Source: a bacterium endosymbiont of Escarpia laminata (GTDB lineage: Bacteria; Pseudomonadota; Gammaproteobacteria; Chromatiales; Chromatiaceae). Taken from it: 64,000 nt of DNA. Position numbers and translations under genes: made by a program. The notes beneath the pieces are model-generated. The model was given only the letters and a program-made list of their open reading frames with translations, had not been told where the DNA came from and searched no databases. Location of the stretch: the NCBI GenBank assembly GCA_003660235.1, contig QGON01000066.1, forward strand, positions 1 to 64,000. The letters run 5' to 3'. Shown piece after piece: positions 55,358-64,000 of this stretch. How positions within the stretch are numbered: position 1 is the stretch's first letter; each line of letters starts with the position of its first letter.

Positions 55358-56080
55358 TTAGGATTCTTCGAGCTTTTTCGCCCAAGGAGCCAAGTGTCGT
55401 TTCTCGCGTGGATTATCGACCTGGTTTCTGGACGGGCTGAAGAATATGCCAGGGATATGCAGCAATTTGCTGAAGGGCAAAATGATCATCAGCACAACAA
55501 CAAGTGTCAGATGCATGATCAGCGCAAAATCCATCGGCAGTTCGCCACCACTGAGGGTAAACAGTCCGCCGAAGAACTGTTTGACCATAACAACGTCAGT
55601 GTGGACAAGGAACTTCATCATCAGGCCGCTAAAGCCGATGAAGATGAGCAATAGCAACATCAGGTAATCTGAAGGCGCTGAAATATAGCGTACACGATCA
55701 ACGAAAATACGACGCAGGAAGAGACCGCCGAGTCCGGCAACCATGGCAAATCCTGCATAGATGCCAAAAGGCTGGATCAGTGCGATCGGAAGCGGAACAG
55801 GATCGACAAAATAACGGACATGCCGCGCCAACACTACAAACAACCCCATGTGGAACATCCAGGAAAAGATCCAGGTCCACTTGGTGCTTTTGAAAAGGCT
55901 TTCAAAGAAAACCACTTCACGGAACATACGCAGTACCACACCGGCCTGAGTCACAGGAGCCGGAGTAGTGGGAATCTTTAATGGTGCAGGTGTCTTGGCG
56001 TACTGCACAATTTTACGTGCCAGACCAAGTACCAGAACGATGGTCGCTACGATAAACAGCAACGCGTAGACTGTTGACAT
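55358..56080 (-). CDS. dsrM: DsrM, b-type cytochrome membrane subunit
   Basis: A 240-residue NarI-like membrane protein with five predicted segments (VYALLFIVATIVLVLGLA, WIFSWMFHMGLFVVLARHV, LLLLLIFIGFSGLMMKFLV and others) and histidines positioned for two b hemes. It passes electrons between DsrK and the quinone pool. It starts 31 bp after a hairpin that follows dsrC. Confidence 0.94.
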   Translation of the reverse strand: MSTVYALLFIVATIVLVLGLARKIVQYAKTPAPLKIPTTPAPVTQAGVVLRMFREVVFFESLFKSTKWTWIFSWMFHMGLFVVLARHVRYFVDPVPLPIALIQPFGIYAGFAMVAGLGGLFLRRIFVDRVRYISAPSDYLMLLLLIFIGFSGLMMKFLVHTDVVMVKQFFGGLFTLSGGELPMDFALIMHLTLVVVLMIILPFSKLLHIPGIFFSPSRNQVDNPREKRHLAPWAKKLEES

Positions 56081-56110
56081 GTTCCTGCGTTCCTCAGAAG
56101 GATTAAATGA

Positions 56111-56134
56111 CCGGGAGGAAAAAACTCCTCCCGG
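56111..56134 (-). promoter_or_regulatory. Stem-loop between dsrC and dsrM
   Basis: CCGGGAGGA (56111-56119) and TCCTCCCGG (56126-56134) make a perfect 9-bp stem with an AAAAAC loop, 15 bases after the dsrC stop and 31 before the dsrM start. No T-run follows on the transcribed strand. Such a structure would protect the 3' end of a dsrC message or cause partial termination, fitting the higher DsrC demand as a sulfur carrier. Confidence 0.75.
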
Positions 56135-56148
56135 ACTTCAGCTACTGC

Positions 56149-56481
56149 TTAGATGCAGCCAGTAGGCTTGGGCAGACCGGCAAAGCGGCAAGCCTGCTTA
56201 CCAGGACCGTAAGGGAACAGACCGTACAAATACTTGCTGTTGCCCTTCTCTTTGCCCAGTTTCTTGCCAACAGCCTTGGTCAGAACGCGGACAGCAGGAG
56301 CGATCTGATACTCTTCGTAGTATTCACGCAGGAAGTTGATGATATCCCAGTGCTCATCAGTCAGCTCAAGGTCATCTTCCTTCGCCATCTCTTCTGCAAC
56401 TACGGGCTCCCAATCAGCCAGAGTTACCAGGTAACCCTCTTCGTCAGTCTCATAAACTTTACCGTTAGCTTCGATAGCCAT
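56149..56481 (-). CDS. dsrC: DsrC, sulfur-carrier protein with both cysteines
   Basis: 110 residues. The flexible C-terminal arm reads ACRFAGLPKPTGCI, with Cys98 and Cys109 eleven residues apart as in canonical DsrC, giving the trisulfide and disulfide chemistry between DsrEFH, DsrAB and DsrK. ATG 56481 follows GGAGAAATACT; a longer in-frame start at 56607 overlaps dsrH and is unlikely. It is the intact counterpart of the cysteine-less paralogue at 62313. Confidence 0.97.
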   Translation of the reverse strand: MAIEANGKVYETDEEGYLVTLADWEPVVAEEMAKEDDLELTDEHWDIINFLREYYEEYQIAPAVRVLTKAVGKKLGKEKGNSKYLYGLFPYGPGKQACRFAGLPKPTGCI

Positions 56482-56524
56482 AGTATTTCTCCAATTTAGA
56501 GTTAAATTATTCAGTTGGGATTTA

Positions 56525-56830
56525 TCAAACCCAGGCTGAAACTTTATCGTTTTCAACAGCCAGCTTGACAAAACCCGCGTAATCCACAACTTCAATGCCT
56601 TCAGCAAGCTTCTCTTGCGAGATGCCGCGGGCCTTCAGGTCAGAACCAAGTGCATAAAACTTGACACCCGATGCTGCAGCCACCTTCTCAGCAACGGCGT
56701 TACCCTTCATTGCCCCATAAACGCCATCTTCATACATCAGAACGGCGCTACCCTCTTTTGCATAACCCAGGCAATCTGCCAGTGAGTTCTTCTCAAAAGG
56801 GGATTTGTTAACAGTATGCAAAGTACTCAT
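56525..56830 (-). CDS. dsrH: DsrH (TusB-like) sulfurtransferase subunit
   Basis: 101 residues, third subunit of the DsrEFH hexamer that hands sulfur to DsrC. The conserved cysteine is Cys20 in SLADCLGYAKEG, the same number as in A. vinosum DsrH. It begins 15 bases after dsrF. Confidence 0.95.
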   Translation of the reverse strand: MSTLHTVNKSPFEKNSLADCLGYAKEGSAVLMYEDGVYGAMKGNAVAEKVAAASGVKFYALGSDLKARGISQEKLAEGIEVVDYAGFVKLAVENDKVSAWV

Positions 56831-56845
56831 GCGATCTCTCCGCCT

Positions 56846-57256
56846 TTAGAAGCTATAGATAACATCCTGGTCATCCAGGACGTCCGCCAATTCAGCGCGA
56901 CTGACGAGACGGATGGAGTCCTTCTCTGCCCAATCGTCATCTTCGTCTTCCCAGGTGAGAGGCATCAGGTCATCAAGGGTCAGGCCCCGCTCTTCCAGAG
57001 ACTCTTTCTCCACATAGAGCTTGGTAACATCGTAATCACCCAACGCCTTGTAAGTGGTGGAGAAGTTCTTCATATCGGACTCAGAGGTATCCTGACCTTC
57101 GAGCAGCTGATAGACCCCATCTCCGATAAACGCCAGACTGACATCCTGATCGAATGCAGCACCGATCAGCACAACCTCCAATGACTCCCACGCATAGATA
57201 GTGCCATAGGGGGCACGGCGGTTGAGATACATGAATTTCTTGATTTTTTCAGACAT
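56846..57256 (-). CDS. dsrF: DsrF (TusC-like) sulfurtransferase subunit
   Basis: 136 residues of the DsrE/TusC fold: FMYLNRRAPYGTIYAWESLEVVLIGAAFDQ and VSLAFIGDGVYQLLEGQDTS, which is the DsrF signature. It contains no cysteine, as in the A. vinosum subunit's lack of an essential one. It lies between dsrE and dsrH with 16-17 base gaps. Confidence 0.95.
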   Translation of the reverse strand: MSEKIKKFMYLNRRAPYGTIYAWESLEVVLIGAAFDQDVSLAFIGDGVYQLLEGQDTSESDMKNFSTTYKALGDYDVTKLYVEKESLEERGLTLDDLMPLTWEDEDDDWAEKDSIRLVSRAELADVLDDQDVIYSF

Positions 57257-57272
57257 CGTTCAACCTCTATAC

Positions 57273-57665
57273 TCAATCACCAAAAACCATGAGACGCTCG
57301 GACTGTATACCCGCCTCAATCAGCTGACCGAGACCGGAGATCCGGAATCCGTCAGCGATATTCTGGGCATCTTTACCGTTACGCTGCATCTCACCCTCGT
57401 CCACGATACCGCGACGTTGTGCGGCTGCCACGCAGACAACCATGTCGAGATCGTGCTCCTTGGCCAGTTCAGACCAGCGGTTGACGATGTTCCTGTCATC
57501 CTGGGGAGGTGTCGTCAGATTGGTACCGTTGTTCACGCCATCATGATAGAAGAAGACACGCATGATCTCGTGCCCGGCATCCAGCGCGGCTTTGGCGAAA
57601 TGGTAGGCTGAATCAGTCGCTTGATGCTGATAGGGCCCTTCGTTTACCTGAATCGCAAATTTCAT
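57273..57665 (-). CDS. dsrE: DsrE (TusD-like) sulfurtransferase subunit
   Basis: 130 residues. The active-site cysteine is Cys78 in DMVVCVAAAQRRG, counting from the ATG at 57665, identical in position to A. vinosum DsrE Cys78, which carries the sulfur to DsrC. A TTG one codon upstream is possible. DsrEFH with dsrL marks the cluster as oxidative rather than sulfate-reducing. Confidence 0.96.
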   Translation of the reverse strand: MKFAIQVNEGPYQHQATDSAYHFAKAALDAGHEIMRVFFYHDGVNNGTNLTTPPQDDRNIVNRWSELAKEHDLDMVVCVAAAQRRGIVDEGEMQRNGKDAQNIADGFRISGLGQLIEAGIQSERLMVFGD

Positions 57666-57708
57666 CAATTATAACCTTTCTGTTGAAAGACTTGAGCTTC
57701 GATCCGAA

Positions 57709-58782
57709 TCAGAAACGGATATGAGCAGAAGCGTTCAGGTTGGCACGACCGCCACGCCAGTTATCGATATGATACTTGGTGAAAGGCAATCCGGTCTTCT
57801 CGAAGAAGCTCGGCCATCCGATACGCTCGGCCCACTCGCCCATGCGCTCGTAGTCTTTTGCGTCTGCCTTGTAGGCAGCCAGGATCTGCTTGACGATCTT
57901 GGAGACCTCGGGCCAGCGCGGAGGATTGTTCGGCACGCCGGAGGCAACCAGCTTGTGGAAGGTTGGCTTGGAACGTGCGTTGGAGTGCTTGCCACCGACC
58001 CAGATTGCGAAATTGGAGTGCTCCGGATCGTTGATCTGCATCGGCGGACAGGGCGGGAAGCAGGCGCCGCAACAGATGCACTTCTTCTCATCTACTTCGA
58101 GAGAAGGCTTGCCGTTGACCATCGCGGGACGGATTGCCGCCACCGGGCAACGCGCCACAACTGTAGGACGCTCACAGACATTACCGACCTGAGAGTGATC
58201 GATCTTCGGCGGCTTGACGTGCTGAATGTTGATCGCGATATCACCCTGACCACCGCAGTTGATCTGACAGCAGGAAGAGGTCAGACGAACACGGTTCGGC
58301 ATCTCTTCATGGGTGAACTCATCGATGATCTCATCCATCAGCGCTTTAACAGCACCGGATGCGTCCGTTCCGGGAATATCGCAGTGTAACCAACCCTGGG
58401 TATGGGATACGGTGGAGACGGAATTACCGGTACCACCAATCGGGTTGCCGTGAGCCGTCAATGCGTCGATCAGCGGCTGAACCTTGGATTCCTCGCTAAC
58501 CATGAACTCCATGTTGGAGCGAATGGTAAAACGGATATAGCCTTCCGCATAATCATCAGCGATATCCATCAACTCGCGAATCTGATGAATGTCCATCTGA
58601 CGGGACGTGGCCGCACGGACAGTCCATATCTCGTCACCACTATGAGCCACATGATGCAAAACACCAGGGCGCGGACGATCGTGATACTTCCAGTTGCCGT
58701 AATTTTTCTTCATTACAGGATGCAGGAACTCCTGTATATCACGTACGCCTATCTCGTCTGGCATGCGAGGTGCGTCAGCCAT
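57709..58782 (-). CDS. dsrB: Dissimilatory sulfite reductase beta subunit
   Basis: About 357 residues. The siroheme-cluster motifs RLTSSCCQINCGGQGDIAI and the ferredoxin insert CICCGACFPPCPPM are present, together with PRPGVLHHVAHSGDEIWTV and TVSHTQGWLHC. It forms the DsrAB tetramer that, in this setting, oxidises DsrC-bound sulfur to sulfite. ATG 58782 follows TGGAGGTTAGC. A hairpin separates it from dsrA. Confidence 0.97.
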   Translation of the reverse strand: MADAPRMPDEIGVRDIQEFLHPVMKKNYGNWKYHDRPRPGVLHHVAHSGDEIWTVRAATSRQMDIHQIRELMDIADDYAEGYIRFTIRSNMEFMVSEESKVQPLIDALTAHGNPIGGTGNSVSTVSHTQGWLHCDIPGTDASGAVKALMDEIIDEFTHEEMPNRVRLTSSCCQINCGGQGDIAINIQHVKPPKIDHSQVGNVCERPTVVARCPVAAIRPAMVNGKPSLEVDEKKCICCGACFPPCPPMQINDPEHSNFAIWVGGKHSNARSKPTFHKLVASGVPNNPPRWPEVSKIVKQILAAYKADAKDYERMGEWAERIGWPSFFEKTGLPFTKYHIDNWRGGRANLNASAHIRF

Positions 58783-58849
58783 GCTAACCTCCAAATTTCA
58801 AAATCGAATTCTATTTTACGCAACAGCGTTGATATGTGGTTGACATGAG

Positions 58850-58883
58850 ACAAGTCACCGGGAAATAAATCCCAGCGACTTGT
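58850..58883 (-). promoter_or_regulatory. Stem-loop between dsrA and dsrB
   Basis: ACAAGTC (58850-58856) and GACTTGT (58877-58883) form a perfect outer stem, and CGGGA with TCCCAG inside pair further, leaving an AATAAA loop. It begins 13 bases after the dsrA stop. A structure at this place would stabilise or punctuate the message between the two subunits. Confidence 0.65.
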
Positions 58884-58895
58884 TTCATCGTCTTA

Positions 58896-60134
58896 CTAAG
58901 CTTTTCGCTCAGTCCACTTGGCAGCTTCCTCATCCCAGTTGTCCATACGAACATAGGGATTGGTACGAGGCTGAGAGATCATATTCGGATCGATTTCGAT
59001 ACCGATACCTTCCAGGAAGTTGGTCAGACCAATACGCTCGATCATCTCACCGGTACGCTCGTGCTCCAGTGCGTTCTCCGCAAAGAAGTCCAGAACTTCG
59101 GTACCCAACTCTTCCAGCCACTCAAAATCCTCATCGGTTTCCATCTTGTGGAAAGGCACGATGACTGTACCCATCAGATCGCCGATCTTCAGGGTACGCT
59201 TACCGCCAATCAGGATGCTAACGCCACCATCATCACCCGGAGAGAGGGCCTTGTTCATGACGTTCAGGCAGTGCATGCAACGCACGCAGTTGCCGTTATC
59301 AACAGCCAGGGTATCGTCGTCGTTCAGTGAGAGTGCCTTGGTCGGGCAGCGAGTGATGACATTGTCGATCACATACTTGCGGCCTTTTTTCTCCACGAAA
59401 GCCTTGACCTCAGCCTGGTCGACCTTCATGTCGTCGCGCCATGTACCGATGACAGCGAAATCAGAACGATGAATGGCATTCATGCAGTCGTTCGCGCAGC
59501 CGGAAACCTTATACTTCATCTTGTATGGCAGAGCCGGACGATGCAGATCGTCAAGCGCATTGTTCACCAGGGTGCGCATTGCCCGGCCTTCGTCGAAGTT
59601 GGACTGCTCGCAGCGGGCAGCACCGACGCAGGACATGGAGGTACGCACGGCGGGACCCGCGCCACCCATGTCGAAGCCCAGCTCATTGATTTCATTAAAG
59701 AAGGGCTGAACGTTCGCAGAGGAGCAACCCTGGAACATGATATCGCCGGACTGGCCGATACCGCAGATCAGACCGGATCCGTACTTCTCCCAGATATCGC
59801 ACATGGTGCGCAGTGTCTTGGTATCGAAGTGAGAGCCTGGAGGTGGCATGATGCGAATGGTGTGAAATTCAGCCGCATCAGGGAATTTGGGGGTTCCGTC
59901 CTCGTTCTTCAGCTCGGTAAAGCGGGGGATGACACCACCACCGTAGCCTATAACACCAACGGTGCCGCCCTTCCAGTAACCCTTCTTGGTCTCGTAGGAG
60001 GTCTCCAGCTGGCCCAGCAGGTCAACTGCAATGTCGTTATCTTTCGCAAGGCGCTTGATACCGCTGATAAAGCTTGGCCAGGGGCCGCTCTCCAGCTGAT
60101 CAAGCATGGGGGTGTCATGCATCTGTTTTGCCAT
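58896..60134 (-). CDS. dsrA: Dissimilatory sulfite reductase alpha subunit
   Basis: About 412 residues. The siroheme-[4Fe-4S] binding cysteines lie in SCVGAARCEQSNFDE and KVSGCANDCMNAIHRSD, and the ferredoxin domain has CPTKALSLND and CVRCMHCLNVMNKAL. Sulfite-binding arginine-rich text RTSMSCVGAARC precedes it. ATG 60134 after GGGAGAAAGAGTG. First gene of the dsr run, so its upstream region (60135-60641) holds the control of the cluster. Confidence 0.97.
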   Translation of the reverse strand: MAKQMHDTPMLDQLESGPWPSFISGIKRLAKDNDIAVDLLGQLETSYETKKGYWKGGTVGVIGYGGGVIPRFTELKNEDGTPKFPDAAEFHTIRIMPPPGSHFDTKTLRTMCDIWEKYGSGLICGIGQSGDIMFQGCSSANVQPFFNEINELGFDMGGAGPAVRTSMSCVGAARCEQSNFDEGRAMRTLVNNALDDLHRPALPYKMKYKVSGCANDCMNAIHRSDFAVIGTWRDDMKVDQAEVKAFVEKKGRKYVIDNVITRCPTKALSLNDDDTLAVDNGNCVRCMHCLNVMNKALSPGDDGGVSILIGGKRTLKIGDLMGTVIVPFHKMETDEDFEWLEELGTEVLDFFAENALEHERTGEMIERIGLTNFLEGIGIEIDPNMISQPRTNPYVRMDNWDEEAAKWTERKA

Positions 60135-60346
60135 CACTCTTTCTCCCAATGGTCGTTTGTGTAGGGTGTTTGGCCGGTTAATATCCTGTTTTAGTTAGCC
60201 CGGCCATAACACCGAGCGCAGGAACAGCCCTTTCCCCTGCAATACAATACCGTTGCAGGCGAAGACCTGCTCCTACTGGCGGCCAATTTTAGGAGTTCCT
60301 AATGCAGCACCATATCCTTCCGATGGGGGGGGGATCCGGCATTCTT

Positions 60347-60364
60347 CTATCCCATATGGGATAG
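60347..60364. promoter_or_regulatory. Perfect palindrome CTATCCCATATGGGATAG, candidate operator
   Basis: CTATCCCATATGGGATAG is an 18-bp perfect dyad (20 bp with the flanking T and A), about 213 bp upstream of dsrA and 278 bp upstream of the 60642 gene. Its half-sites of nine bases are the right size for a dimeric regulator. The regulator is unknown. Confidence 0.6.
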
Positions 60365-60572
60365 ATGCCACTCGCTCCACGCTTTATTGCACACTTATCA
60401 GCGCACTAAATATCTAACAATTACAATCAGTAAGAAAATATAATTGAGTTTGCAGACATATAAAGCACCGTAAATCCTAAATCAGCTATATCCCTATTAA
60501 TAAAATATGATTGATTCAACAACCTGGGCCGTGAACACCAAATACCTCACGAATAGTTGAGTAAATTACTAT

Positions 60573-60601
60573 GTAATTACTCTCTCCAATTCGTTATAAT
60601 C
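60573..60601 (+). promoter_or_regulatory. Possible promoter of the divergent module
   Basis: A consensus TATAAT at 60596-60601 lies 41 bases before the ATG at 60642. The -35 place, TGTAAT at about 60573, is a poor match, so an activator may be needed. Weak evidence. Confidence 0.4.
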
Positions 60602-60641
60602 TCACCCCTGAAACAATTTTGACCCAAGCGTGGCCTAAACA

Positions 60642-60818
60642 ATGCTCTATTTAAGTGAAGTAATGATGCAGAATCCTGACTTCGAAACATTTGAACAGCT
60701 TCAGACCGCCGTCAAAGAGCACTCAAAATCAGAGATGTTTTTCCGTATCGACGTAAAGCCGCCCTATCCGGATACACCGGAGAACTGGGAAGACCGACTG
60801 GAAGCCAGTTTCACCTAA
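60642..60818 (+). CDS. 58-residue conserved-looking small protein
   Basis: ATG at 60642 to TAA at 60816-60818 encodes 58 residues, MLYLSEVMMQNPDFETFEQL at the start and ending LEASFT. The text is compact and acidic with PPYPDTPENWEDRL near the end, unlike random frames. No ribosome site is strong. It starts the plus-strand gene group that runs away from dsrA and is 26 bases ahead of the next gene. I do not recognise a family. It is short enough to be missed by gene finders with a 60-codon cut-off. Confidence 0.6.
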   Translation: MLYLSEVMMQNPDFETFEQLQTAVKEHSKSEMFFRIDVKPPYPDTPENWEDRLEASFT

Positions 60819-60844
60819 CACCTGTTACACAACGAGAAGTGCCC

Positions 60845-61555
60845 GTGAAATATCTCGAATCAGAAACCTTCATCGGTGATGCGGAATGCTCAGATGATGC
60901 CATCAAGCCGACCCAACAGCTTGAGGAACGACTCAAAAAGCTGCTTGGAGAGGTCAACACACTTCCAAACGACGTCTCTATCGAGCAACGCCTCAAGCCC
61001 CTCCTTGAAAGCGGCTATATCATGCTTGATCTTGACCGCTTGGATGAAGCCTGGGAGATAACCCGCCCCACACTCGACCAATCCATCTCAGCCGGGCTGT
61101 GGCTGCAGGCGGTCGAAGCCTGCGACATTCTCTATCAGACCGGCAATGATGACGCCCTCAGAGCGCTGGCCCACGGCATCTGGCTCGGCGTCACCTTCCC
61201 CATCGAACCGGGGCTGAGCGTCGCCATGCTGCAGCATCTCGTTGACGAAACTCCGGACAATTCCGATGGCGCGGCAGTTGCCGCCGCCACTGCCGGCTAT
61301 ATTGCCGACATGCGTGCCGAGGGGCCGGACCGGGAGGAGTTGAAGTTTTTCACCAACCAATTGATGGGCCAGGTCGCCCGCCGCCACAGCCAGGTCGAGG
61401 AGCAGGAGATCTTCGACTTCTGGGTGGAGCGCATGGAACTGGATGACCCGTCCAAGTTTTTACCCCGACTGGCCCAGGTGCTTGACATAGTCAACGAGAA
61501 CGGCTGGTGGTTCGATCGCGAAGAACTGAGAGGCAGGATCCCAGCGGATCCGTAA
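60845..61555 (+). CDS. Helical protein of unknown function in the dsr-divergent module
   Basis: About 236 residues, all predicted helices, acidic, with no membrane segment. One stretch around residues 50-110 (DLDRLDEAWEITRPTLDQSI, LWLQAVEACDILYQTGNDDA) looks like tetratricopeptide-type repeats. The GTG at 60845 follows GAGAAGTGCCC; a GTG at 60839 is the alternative. Not a known Dsr protein. It is co-directional with the 58-residue gene and the Cmx6-like gene (17-base gap), so the three are likely one operon. Confidence 0.75.
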   Translation: MKYLESETFIGDAECSDDAIKPTQQLEERLKKLLGEVNTLPNDVSIEQRLKPLLESGYIMLDLDRLDEAWEITRPTLDQSISAGLWLQAVEACDILYQTGNDDALRALAHGIWLGVTFPIEPGLSVAMLQHLVDETPDNSDGAAVAAATAGYIADMRAEGPDREELKFFTNQLMGQVARRHSQVEEQEIFDFWVERMELDDPSKFLPRLAQVLDIVNENGWWFDREELRGRIPADP

Positions 61556-61572
61556 TTCAAGAGCTATCTATC

Positions 61573-62232
61573 ATGCACTGGCAAGAAGAAATCGATGAAA
61601 CGGTCTATATCGTTCCCGACAACGTAATGGACCTTGCCTACCAGATAAAATGCCGGACACTGCCGGTCGACCACGCCTGGCCGCTGGCTGCAGCGATACA
61701 TCAGGCACTGCCCTGGTTTGCAGAGGAGCCGTTGGCTGGATTACACCTCATCTATGGCGCCGACTCCGGCAATGGTTGGGAGCGCCCCCGGGATGCCGCT
61801 GCCACCCTCTATCTCTCACGCCGTACCCGCCTTGTCCTGCGCCTGCCCAAACACCGCCTCCCCGACGCCGAGGCCCTTACAGGACAGACACTGGAGGTAG
61901 CGGACAATCTATTGGAGATCGGCAAGGGCACACCCCGGCTGCTCGGCATGACCACCACCCTCTACTCTCGCTTTGTCGTGGATGAAACGGACGGCGACGA
62001 GGATCAGTTCATAACAGCTGCAGTCGAAGGCCTGCGCGCCCTGAATCTGCGTTTCACGAAAGTACTCAGCGGCAGGCGCTACGCTTTCTCCACACCGGAG
62101 GGTGAGATTTCCACGCGCAGCCTGATGGTGGCCGGTCTGCCTCTGGATCACGCGGTGAGGTTACAGGAGAATGGTCTCGGCCCCCTCCGAAATCGCGGAT
62201 TCGGCTTGTTCGTCCCCCAAAAGTCTGTTTAA
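61573..62232 (+). CDS. Orphan type I-MYXAN Cas6/Cmx6-family protein
   Basis: About 219 residues. The order and spacing of motifs match Cmx6 (Cas6 of the Myxococcus-type I system): LPVDHAWPLAAAIHQALPWF near residue 40, LHLIYG, RRTRLVLRLPKHRLPDA, ALTGQTLEVADNLLEIG, SRFVV, an ADMRALN-like alpha region, and a C-terminal glycine-rich loop LQENGLGPLRNRGFGLFVP typical of RAMP-fold Cas6 endoribonucleases. No cas gene or CRISPR array is near. Between the helical gene and the DsrC-like gene, it is part of the dsr-divergent unit. Function unknown: RNA binding or cleavage is likely from family. Confidence 0.8.
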   Translation: MHWQEEIDETVYIVPDNVMDLAYQIKCRTLPVDHAWPLAAAIHQALPWFAEEPLAGLHLIYGADSGNGWERPRDAAATLYLSRRTRLVLRLPKHRLPDAEALTGQTLEVADNLLEIGKGTPRLLGMTTTLYSRFVVDETDGDEDQFITAAVEGLRALNLRFTKVLSGRRYAFSTPEGEISTRSLMVAGLPLDHAVRLQENGLGPLRNRGFGLFVPQKSV

Positions 62233-62312
62233 TATATAGTGTTTTAATGATTTTCTTGATTGGCGGGTGTATGCAAATAGATCCGTCACAAATGCACACG
62301 AAGGAGAAATCA

Positions 62313-62657
62313 ATGTCGTACGAAGTAAATGGTGCAACCGTCGAGGCCGACGATCACGGTTACCTGGTCAACACAGCCGATTGGAACGAGGATGTCGCCA
62401 AAGCCATCGCTGCCGCTGAAGGTGTTGAACTGTCCGAGAAGGGCTGGGATATCGTCAACTACCTGCGTGATGAGTACATCAACAACAACGGCAACCAGCC
62501 CAATGAACGTAACATGGTCAAGCACTTCAAGAAAGTCTGGACCGATCTCCCAAAGGTGGACACCAAGGCACTCTACAATGAGTTCCCCACCGGCCCCGCA
62601 AAACAGGCGGGTAAAATCGCCGGCACGCCTGAGACCAAACGTAAGGGCGGGTATTAA
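62313..62657 (+). CDS. DsrC/TusE-family paralogue lacking both catalytic cysteines
   Basis: 114 residues. It aligns well by eye with DsrC: YEVNGATVEADDHGYLVNTA (as in DsrC's VYETDEEGYLVTLADWE), GWDIVNYLRDEY and GPAKQAGKIAGTPETK. Where DsrC has Cys98 (KQACRFAGLP) this has Gly or Ala (KQAGKIAGTP), and the C-terminal Cys-containing tail is replaced by KRKGGY. So it cannot carry sulfur through the usual chemistry. ATG 62313 follows AAGGAGAAATCA. It closes the plus-strand group. A regulatory or RNA-linked role is possible. Confidence 0.88.
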   Translation: MSYEVNGATVEADDHGYLVNTADWNEDVAKAIAAAEGVELSEKGWDIVNYLRDEYINNNGNQPNERNMVKHFKKVWTDLPKVDTKALYNEFPTGPAKQAGKIAGTPETKRKGGY

Positions 62658-62763
62658 TCAGGTGAAAGGTTAAAGGCGAAAGGTGGCCGTGCCAATGGAT
62701 AGGCCGAACTCCGTCGTTGCTGCCGGTGATGACTGAAAGACTTTAAAGGTTTGATGCATGATC

Positions 62764-62786
62764 CTGGCAAATCTCCGATTTGCCAG
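62764..62786 (+). terminator. Stem-loop after the DsrC-like gene
   Basis: CTGGCAAATC and GATTTGCCAG form a perfect 10-bp stem around a TCC loop. It is followed by CCTTTAACCTTTTGCC on the plus strand, which is T-rich but not a clean run. It separates the plus-strand module from the convergent 62804 gene and may end both. Confidence 0.6.
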
Positions 62787-62803
62787 CCTTTAACCTTTTG
62801 CCT

Positions 62804-63187
62804 TTAGCCTTCCTTAACCTTCTCCAACAGCGGCTCCAGATCTGATTCCCCAACAGGAAAAGTGCAAACCCCAAACAGCGGATAGCGCTGCTGCACCTTA
62901 TCGAGCCGATATTGGTGGTTGGGATCGTATAGGACGATGACCCGGCTATCTGGACTGTATTTCTGCAGGGCCGCCATCAGTGACTCGAGATTACTCATCC
63001 TGTCACGAAATTCTGCATCAAAATTGAACTCAGTGACCACCACTGCAGGCGTGTGTGTTTTCAGCCAGGCCTGCGCCTTTCTCACCGAATTGACTGTCTC
63101 GACCTGATAGCCGTGACGTTGATAAAGCGGCGTGAAATTGGGATAACCACCAAACTCCACCACCGCAAGTAATTCCCGATCTTTCAT
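62804..63187 (-). CDS. Receiver-like hypothetical protein
   Basis: 127 residues with alternating strand/helix text of a response-regulator-type fold: LLAVVEFGGYPNF, AVVVTEFNFDAEFRDR, DSRVIVLYDPNHQY and LFGVCTFPVGESDLEPLLEKV. The usual phospho-aspartate triad is not clear; the third strand ends in TEFNFD rather than LLD-type text. It could be a pseudo-receiver. It is divergent from the 63257 gene and shares the region between them, so the two may be functionally paired. ATG at 63187. Confidence 0.65.
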   Translation of the reverse strand: MKDRELLAVVEFGGYPNFTPLYQRHGYQVETVNSVRKAQAWLKTHTPAVVVTEFNFDAEFRDRMSNLESLMAALQKYSPDSRVIVLYDPNHQYRLDKVQQRYPLFGVCTFPVGESDLEPLLEKVKEG

Positions 63188-63256
63188 GTGCTTGATTTTG
63201 TCCCGTTAGGAAACGAAGATTCAAACCGAAGTTTAACTGCCAAGGCGAGTTTGTTC

Positions 63257-63574
63257 ATGCGGCTGAATCTGATTATTGGTGAATATTCCTTGGATATGGA
63301 GATCCAGGACGGCTATCTGGAGACGATGACCGATTCTTTCGGCAAAATGGATCAGGACATGAGTCAGGGTGTGCAACTCGGTCAGCAGTGGGTGGAAAAT
63401 CCCTCTCAACTCCAGCGTTGCCAAGTCGCAGCGGACAAACTGCTGTCTGCGATTGAAAACCACAATGAGACTTTGGCGATGTTGACGGGCGGGTATATCG
63501 TCTCCCACCTTTCCAGCATCAAGCAGGTCAAGATCAACACCGAGGGGGAACCGGCGGAGACTGAATTCCACTAG
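63257..63574 (+). CDS. Hypothetical helical protein
   Basis: About 105 residues, acidic and helical: LIIGEYSLDMEIQDGYLETM, MDQDMSQGVQLGQQWV, CQVAADKLLSAIENHNETLAML. The ATG at 63257 lies eight bases after GGCGAG; the frame is open upstream to 63188 but that part is short of a ribosome site. No family recognised. It is divergent from the receiver-like gene and precedes a REP-like repeat. Confidence 0.65.
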   Translation: MRLNLIIGEYSLDMEIQDGYLETMTDSFGKMDQDMSQGVQLGQQWVENPSQLQRCQVAADKLLSAIENHNETLAMLTGGYIVSHLSSIKQVKINTEGEPAETEFH

Positions 63575-63595
63575 GGATAGCGCATAGTTTAGTTC

Positions 63596-63685
63596 GTAGG
63601 CCTGATCAAGCGTAGCGGATCAGGCACAGGGTTCGGCACAACCAACGGGCTTCGCGCCGGTTCCGCTACGCTTGAACCGACCTAC
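63596..63685. repeat. REP-like repeat pair after the 63257 gene
   Basis: The element opens with GTAGGCCTGATCAAGCGTAG and forms a hairpin through GCCTGATC and GATCAGGC, then closes with CCGCTACGCTTGAACCGACC plus TAC. Bounds are GTAGG and CCTAC as at 46090-46180. It lies between the 63257 gene and the minus-strand gene at the window edge. Confidence 0.8.
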
Positions 63686-63697
63686 ATCTCTGTTCTC

Positions 63698-64000
63698 TCA
63701 TAGTTTATTCTGCTCGACTAATACCGCCATCGGCTGCGCGGACTCAGTACCATGCTTGTCGAACAGGTTGAGCAGACGCGTTCCCAGATGCGCCCAGTGC
63801 TGTTCCCCGCTGGCGGCTATACGCGTCAATCTTGACAGGTCCCCGGTTGCGACCCATCTATCATAGGCTTTGATCAAGGCGGGAAAGAGGGTCTTGCGCA
63901 TCCCCCCAAGACTGCCGACATAGAAGTGCAGTGAGGCAGCATCCGCCTTTTTCACAAGCGCCGGGAGGGTCACCAGGCAATCGGCCCAATGATCCCGTAC
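63698..64000 (-). CDS. C-terminal part of a hypothetical gene (runs off the window)
   Basis: The frame is open from 64000 to the stop at 63698, giving about 100 residues that begin VRDHWADCLVTLPALVKKAD and include FPALIKAYDRWVATGDLSRL. The start lies beyond the window. Helical, no recognised motif. It is separated from the 63257 gene by the REP-like repeat. Confidence 0.6.
   Translation of the reverse strand, partial: VRDHWADCLVTLPALVKKADAASLHFYVGSLGGMRKTLFPALIKAYDRWVATGDLSRLTRIAASGEQHWAHLGTRLLNLFDKHGTESAQPMAVLVEQNKL

Follow-up and report, generated by a model that had tools for sequence, protein, structure and literature searches.

A gene module divergent from dsrA in sulfur-oxidizing Gammaproteobacteria includes a Cas6-family protein, a candidate ribonuclease

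Purple sulfur bacteria, SUP05-type plankton, and the symbionts of tubeworms and clams oxidize sulfur by means of reverse Dsr. To our knowledge, little has been described of how the pathway is controlled. The subject here is a module of four genes (orf58, h237, cmx6, and rspA) found opposite dsrA in DNA from the bacterial endosymbiont of Escarpia laminata (assembly GCA_003660235.1, contig QGON01000066.1, positions 1 to 64,000; this whole stretch of 64,000 nucleotides is termed the window). The partner of the module is the dsr operon, known from purple sulfur bacteria as dsrABEFHCMKLJOPNRS; none of the four genes bears a dsr name. One of them encodes Cmx6, a protein of the Cas6 family.

The closest described proteins come from two families. 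Type I-MYXAN Cmx6 (TIGR02807, PF09559) and type I-B Cas6 (PDB 8fcj) resemble the window protein in family membership and in a glycine-rich RNA loop. Haloferax Cas6 requires His41 and two loop glycines in vivo, and the histidine aligned with His41 is catalytic in two other Cas6 proteins (PMC3945376). The DsrC/TusE/RspA family (PF04358, TIGR03342) has solved members in 1yx3, 1sau, and 2v4j, and its canonical member, DsrC, carries two cysteines in its arm.

In the window, the open reading frames place the four genes consecutively on the plus strand, opposite dsrA, with gaps of 26, 17, and 80 bp. A sequence-only reading had described just this arrangement, with short gaps and a divergent dsrA about 500 bp away, and had remarked that the first three genes have no Dsr names; both observations hold. 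All four are real genes, not chance frames, because ratios of nonsynonymous to synonymous substitution against five same-genus genomes indicate purifying selection: 0.06–0.22 for orf58; 0.09–0.16 for h237; 0.12–0.13 for cmx6; and 0.01–0.07 for rspA.

The tie to reverse Dsr is evident from whole genomes. Among 276 genomes of the class (gamma- and betaproteobacteria, each at least 90% complete), cmx6 is present in 92 and dsrA in 91: both occur in 88 genomes, cmx6 alone in four, dsrA alone in three, and neither in 181 (Fisher p = 5.7e-63, a value inflated by relatedness). In all three dsrA-only genomes (G129, G141, G219) the contig ends beside dsrA, on the side where the module would lie. Of the four cmx6-only genomes, three (G094, G115, G145) have a contig that stops just past a tauD; in the fourth (G297), the 2.3 kb upstream of orf58 contain no dsrA. 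Sixty-seven pairs share a contig, and in 66 of these the two genes are divergent and 572–4436 bp apart; a further 21 pairs lie on different contigs. One genome (G128) retains both genes at a distance of 41 kb. Within the family of the window's genome, two genomes without a true dsrA match (G006, G017) also lack cmx6 and h237. The gene cas1 shows no such relation, occurring in 36 of 92 genomes with cmx6 and 64 of 184 without (p = 0.51). Four genomes of only 1.0–1.1 Mb (G070, G159, G287, G259) keep tauD-orf58-cmx6-rspA beside dsrA and have no cas1 match. It is nearly certain that the module serves reverse Dsr, as the sequence-only reading had proposed: gene order and whole-genome co-occurrence together support that link strongly.

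Gene order was compared by scanning with an h237 profile, keeping one genome per species (80 of 167 confirmed loci). Of these 80 loci, 62 contain cmx6; the remaining 18 hold paralogues of h237 that are linked to neither dsr nor cmx6. (These stand-alone paralogues are found in gamma- and betaproteobacteria, in housekeeping-like neighborhoods whose gene clusters are partly common to several of them.) All four genes with a divergent dsrA are present in 40 of the 46 named loci that have enough flank, so the set does recur in other dsr genomes. Six loci deviate: three from betaproteobacteria have no detectable orf58 (L163, L172, L207), two have no rspA (L185, L210), and one is a Thiomargarita-labelled contig (L176). 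The last carries orf58-h237-cmx6; dsrA is missing from the 10 kb upstream, and no rspA follows. Carriers of the module include Thiodiazotropha, Sedimenticola, Thioglobus, Chromatiaceae, Acidiferrobacterales, Muproteobacteria, Arenicellales, and betaproteobacteria, along with genomes of Thiocystis, Marichromatium, Thiorhodococcus, Thiobaca, and Thiohalocapsa.

The module is flexible, and the set of four genes is one of its forms. Where more than 1 kb separates dsrA from the module, a gene for a TauD-like dioxygenase on the module strand fills the space in 43 of 44 loci (the identity rests on a Pfam TauD match for two members of the dioxygenase family). Several genomes have orf58-cmx6-rspA without h237. 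Three genomes of one to three contigs, betaproteobacterial to judge from their divergence, have cmx6-rspA alone, 400–550 bp from dsrA. Thus the set of four first proposed is conserved, but not as the only form: the dioxygenase gene often comes first, and h237 or orf58 is sometimes missing.

Judged by its sequence, Cmx6 is a true member of the Cas6 family, in agreement with its first description as Cmx6-like. It matches Pfam Cas6 (PF09559; E 9.9e-52, 176.1 bits against a cut-off of 26.7) and TIGR02807 (102.7 bits, cut-off 98.85), and its sole solved sequence relative is the type I-B Cas6 of PDB 8fcj (E 4.8e-22). For comparison with CRISPR loci, six Cmx6 sequences were taken that lie beside cas3 and cmx8 or cas8a1 on cyanobacterial plasmids. 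Residues D33 and H34 are invariant in a 16-row alignment of dsr-type sequences with these six, so that the catalytic-type histidine is common to both groups. Among dsr-type sequences covering the site, 140 of 141 keep H34 (the one clear loss is L261), and the preceding aspartate is occasionally Glu or His. From its position, H34 would be the counterpart of Haloferax His41; in a profile alignment, 8fcj has Asn in its place. A GhGx5GhG loop lies near the C-terminus in 137 of 142 sequences (GLGPLRNRGFG in the window). Because the Cas6 histidine and the glycine-rich loop are kept, Cmx6 is predicted to bind RNA and probably to cut it. An extra NGW loop, present in 135 of 142 dsr-type sequences, marks the gammaproteobacterial type; it is absent from seven betaproteobacterial sequences and from the CRISPR-locus Cmx6.

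The genomic setting of dsr-type cmx6 differs from that of its CRISPR relatives. CRISPR cmx6 has cas3 next door, whereas dsr-type cmx6 has dsrA as its neighbor, is independent of cas1, and lies apart from cas genes and arrays. In the loci read, the genes beside cmx6 are those of the dsr module and not cas3, cmx8, or cas8a1, and no direct-repeat family exceeds two copies in positions 56000–64000 of the window. A Cmx6 on Gloeobacter morelensis plasmid pGMOR1 (L272) has no cas genes in view and lies beside PAPS-reductase-family and cupin genes; it may be another case of Cmx6 employed outside CRISPR and close to sulfur chemistry. The window's genome does contain a cas1, on another contig (G000:C22:162845-163702), within an 807-residue open frame that is possibly a fusion.

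RspA belongs to the DsrC family (PF04358: E 3.9e-31, 108.1 bits, cut-off 24.9; TIGR03342 also matched). It aligns over its full length to DsrC structures (1yx3, E 9e-30) and matches NCBIfam TusE PRK11508 below that model's cut-off. Canonical DsrC has two arm cysteines (its C-terminus in the window reads CRFAGLPKPTGCI), whereas RspA has neither, and the window protein contains no cysteine anywhere, as first described. All 26 aligned RspA rows have RKGGY at the end of the arm, with R110, K111, G112, G113, and Y114 invariant, and the rspA gene lies opposite dsrA, outside the dsr operon. Cysteine-less DsrC members of this kind we take to be the RspA type, a name reportedly given by Venceslau 2014.

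The other two proteins have no match in the family databases. For h237, no Pfam or NCBIfam match was found. An AlphaFold2 model built on a 64-sequence alignment (mean predicted local distance difference 92; predicted template-modeling score 0.86) has 11 helices, which bears out the helical 236-residue protein of the sequence-only reading. Its nearest solved shapes are TPR and other helical repeats (Z up to 13.9; root-mean-square deviation 4.0 over 164 residues), values within the background for helical models, and Foldseek gave no match at E ≤ 0.001. The h237 of the tubeworm symbiont of Lamellibrachia anaximandri (JAESPD010000010.1) is 92% identical to that of the window. The product of orf58 has no match in Pfam, NCBIfam, PADLOC, or PDB, and defines a new conserved family of 58–63 amino acids with the motif [IM]DVKP..DTP..WE.RLEA.F. 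It is the better conserved of the two (column identity averages 64% across 27 genomes, against 57% for h237), and it occurs in five of 299 genomes of the phylum, each of which also has dsrA. The module was first put forward as a possibly new system; two of its parts, Cmx6 and the DsrC paralogue, belong to described types.

Distribution outside the class separates the components. In a sample of the phylum, cmx6 is present in four of four dsrA-positive genomes within the class and in none of 32 outside. Five of the 32 encode a DsrA 67–73% identical to that of the window and lack cmx6, so cmx6 is not universal with oxidative-type DsrAB; these five are alphaproteobacteria by inference. Four of them (L246–L249) have a tauD-like dioxygenase gene and orf58 divergent from dsrA. 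In L247–L249 this pair is followed by cysG, for siroheme synthase (assigned by Pfam and NCBIfam in L247, and by eye in L248 and L249, which share the N-terminal sequence). In L247 a DUF6967 protein is encoded between orf58 and cysG. RspA with the RKGGY end is encoded, not adjoining dsrA, in the same four genomes and in several gammaproteobacteria. Given these distributions, RspA and tauD-orf58 track reverse Dsr broadly, and cmx6 does so in one class only. The link to Dsr that the sequence-only reading drew is upheld; its single job for the whole set is not, since alphaproteobacteria have tauD-orf58 without cmx6, and rspA elsewhere.

The region before dsrA contains a conserved palindrome, TATCCC-N4-GGGATA. 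It is present without mismatch in 41 of 93 loci and with one mismatch in 21 (62 of 93 in all); in 86 control stretches of dsrB (700 nucleotides) the best match never has fewer than three mismatches. Similarity to the palindrome peaks again at an offset of 33 (5.1 of 12 positions over 62 sequences; shuffled mean 3.0, standard deviation 0.19). A TAnnnT box occurs at offsets of 72, 73, and 74 in 26, 17, and 8 sequences, together 51 of the 62 non-redundant ones, whereas the average is 1.3 per offset. Because of the second copy at about 33 bp and the TAnnnT at 72–74 bp, the palindrome looks like the operator of a regulated dsrA promoter. LysR-type promoters have a like layout, a strong palindrome and a weak site near −35 at fixed spacing; the module itself includes no such regulator gene. 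The window's genome holds a single perfect copy, and its six one-mismatch copies, against roughly nine expected by chance on our own estimate, reveal no excess that would mark a wider regulon. Two genomes with cmx6 and an adjacent rspA (G159, G259) lack the palindrome.

Two candidates for an RNA target of Cmx6 were considered and rejected. The palindrome was attractive, with a 7-bp stem, a four-nucleotide loop, and some G-U and two-sided changes. However, it lies at a fixed distance upstream of the −10-like box, its stem mismatches otherwise break pairing, and two lineages hold cmx6 without it. Hairpins in the operon gaps were the other candidate. Stems of seven or more are found in 58% of dsrA-dsrB gaps (15% in shuffled sequence; 86 loci) and in 64% of dsrC-dsrM gaps (22% shuffled; 81 loci), the shuffles preserving base composition only. 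These hairpins keep their place in the operon but differ in sequence between genomes and within one genome, and some alphaproteobacterial loci without cmx6 have them. The window has a very strong hairpin after dsrA, in the gap 58780–58895. In Allochromatium vinosum, transcripts of dsrEFH and dsrC exceed that of dsrA (Grimm 2010, as cited in PMC3397948); unequal levels within the operon therefore exist to be explained, a point in favor of the model set out next.

The following model is preferred. Cmx6 would be a Cas6-family endoribonuclease that has departed from CRISPR and become a core member of the module; it would bind, and probably cut, structured RNA, and so set dsr expression post-transcriptionally. 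RspA, with its altered arm and no sulfur-carrying cysteines, may dock on the DsrC partners DsrEFH or DsrAB and report sulfur load to Cmx6, and h237, possibly TPR-like, may act as a scaffold; these two roles are guesses based on fold and family membership. In genomes that have the TauD-like dioxygenase, the small orf58 product could act as its partner. A transcriptional layer would come from the divergent dsrA promoter and its two-site operator. As a full explanation, a module dedicated to the reverse Dsr of Gammaproteobacteria (in the GTDB sense, which includes betaproteobacteria), with Cmx6 as its CRISPR-derived core endoribonuclease, has a probability of roughly 0.42. Taken singly, control of dsr by Cmx6 through RNA is a possibility at somewhat less than even odds. 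More tentative is an early gammaproteobacterial capture of a CRISPR ribonuclease, after which Cmx6 would cut RNA derived from or acting on dsr while RspA signals the sulfur load of the carrier.

Several observations count against this model. Alphaproteobacteria run reverse Dsr without cmx6, so its chemistry does not need the protein. The hairpin-rich gaps vary in sequence and occur in some of those cmx6-less genomes; the palindrome is placed as a DNA operator rather than a transcript feature, and it is absent from G159 and G259 despite their cmx6; and the search for an RNA target yielded none, with no Rfam match at E ≤ 1. Cmx6 could also bind RNA without cutting it. Moreover, the Fisher value overstates independence, because the genomes are related by descent.

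The main alternative is that the module aids assembly or activity of the Dsr enzymes: RspA would occupy docking sites on DsrAB or DsrEFH, tauD-orf58 and h237 would assist cofactor insertion or assembly, and RNA binding by Cmx6 would be incidental. Siroheme is the cofactor of DsrAB, and the cysG genes after tauD-orf58 in three alphaproteobacterial loci suit this idea, as do an RspA that retains the DsrC domain and arm minus both cysteines, and rspA in dsr alphaproteobacteria that lack cmx6. This account would leave unexplained, however, why Cmx6 so strictly retains the histidine and the RNA loop of Cas6, and cmx6 adjoins rspA in most gamma- and betaproteobacterial loci; we judge this account unlikely on balance. 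Another proposal gives RspA itself the task of regulating the divergent dsr promoter through TATCCC-N4-GGGATA, with cmx6 and h237 as mere passengers. DsrC reportedly binds DNA upstream of dsrA in A. vinosum, and the operator is conserved at fixed spacing before dsrA. Yet four alphaproteobacterial genomes that encode RspA with the RKGGY end (G400, G464, G490, G498) have nothing better than 4–5 mismatches upstream of dsrA, which is background, and G159 and G259 have an adjacent rspA with no palindrome. RspA is thus a poor candidate for the operator's regulator, because it is present in genomes without the palindrome, and the proposal is improbable.

Equally far from the preferred model is a role on tRNA or other thiolated RNA, in which a TusE-like RspA and an RNA-binding Cmx6 link DsrEFH sulfur to RNA modification, or protect tRNA from it. 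The tRNA-thiolation proteins TusE and TusBCD are homologues of DsrC and DsrEFH, respectively (PMC3397948), and RspA matches the TusE model, below its cut-off. Lacking a cysteine, RspA has none for sulfur transfer, and no tRNA-modification gene was seen in the module; there is little likelihood of such a role. The family scores of Cmx6, and the cas1 elsewhere in the window's genome, might instead suggest that Cmx6 processes CRISPR RNA in trans for an unlinked system. Its position opposite dsrA, its independence of cas1, the absence of array-like repeats around cmx6, and its retention in 1.0–1.1 Mb genomes without a cas1 match led to rejection of Cmx6 as a CRISPR accessory, which is very improbable. 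Gene order may persist among related genomes, and so the neighbors could share ancestry without a functional tie. But the module is kept over dozens of families and in reduced genomes, cmx6 and dsrA co-occur even when unlinked, and G006 and G017, which have no true dsrA match, lack cmx6 and h237 as well; mere shared ancestry is scarcely credible.

Coordinates are collected in Table 1. The start of rspA is conserved and preceded by GAAGGAG; a longer mechanical frame from 62247 was rejected as the gene. The h237 query sequences started at 60842, one codon upstream of the GTG. Beyond rspA lie two more small genes, at 62804–63187 (minus strand) and 63188–63574 (plus strand), that are kept in many relatives. 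The window's genome and genus also have a second dsrAB set (G000:C2:83384-84610, L128); its dsrA is 68% identical, and the module is not beside it.

Table 1. Positions of the module, its partner genes, and proposed control elements in the window
Feature	Position	Strand	Remarks
orf58	60642..60818	+	58 amino acids
h237	60845..61555	+	GTG start, 236 amino acids; all-helical, possibly TPR-like
cmx6	61573..62232	+	219 amino acids; Cas6-family (RAMP) protein
rspA-type cysteine-less DsrC/TusE paralogue	62313..62657	+	114 amino acids
Shared control region dsrA/orf58	60135..60641	.	507 bp
dsrA, oxidative (reverse) type, partner operon	58896..60134	-	gene start at 60134
Operator site 1 (proposed), perfect palindrome TATCCC-N4-GGGATA	60348..60363	-	before dsrA
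Operator site 2 (proposed), degenerate	60315..60330	-	33 bp from site 1
-10-like box TAAAAT of dsrA promoter	60286..60291	-	TAnnnT 72-74 bp from site 1 across loci
Canonical dsrC	56149..56490	-	both arm cysteines, in contrast to rspA; PF04358 E 4e-45

No description of a dsr-linked Cas6 was found in the open literature; subscription work on dsr regulation and DsrC paralogues lay outside the scope of that search, and an earlier description is possible. None appears in the accessible portions of PMC11406059, PMC10504309, PMC3397948, PMC4287430, PMC10952691, PMC5944118, PMC5728499, or PMC3945376. The first two of these are surveys of dsr genes, and the portions available do not mention CRISPR; in one, Cas6 goes unmentioned as well.

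Because it is annotated as a CRISPR protein, cmx6 is easy to overlook, even as a near-obligate partner of dsrA across a class. Annotations of 'Cas6/Cmx6' in sulfur oxidizers should not be counted as CRISPR. If Cmx6 is an active ribonuclease, it would be an example of a Cas6 turned to housekeeping work; if the preferred model is true, a Cas6 enzyme would have a class-wide role free of CRISPR. The module hints at an RNA-level layer in the control of sulfur oxidation.

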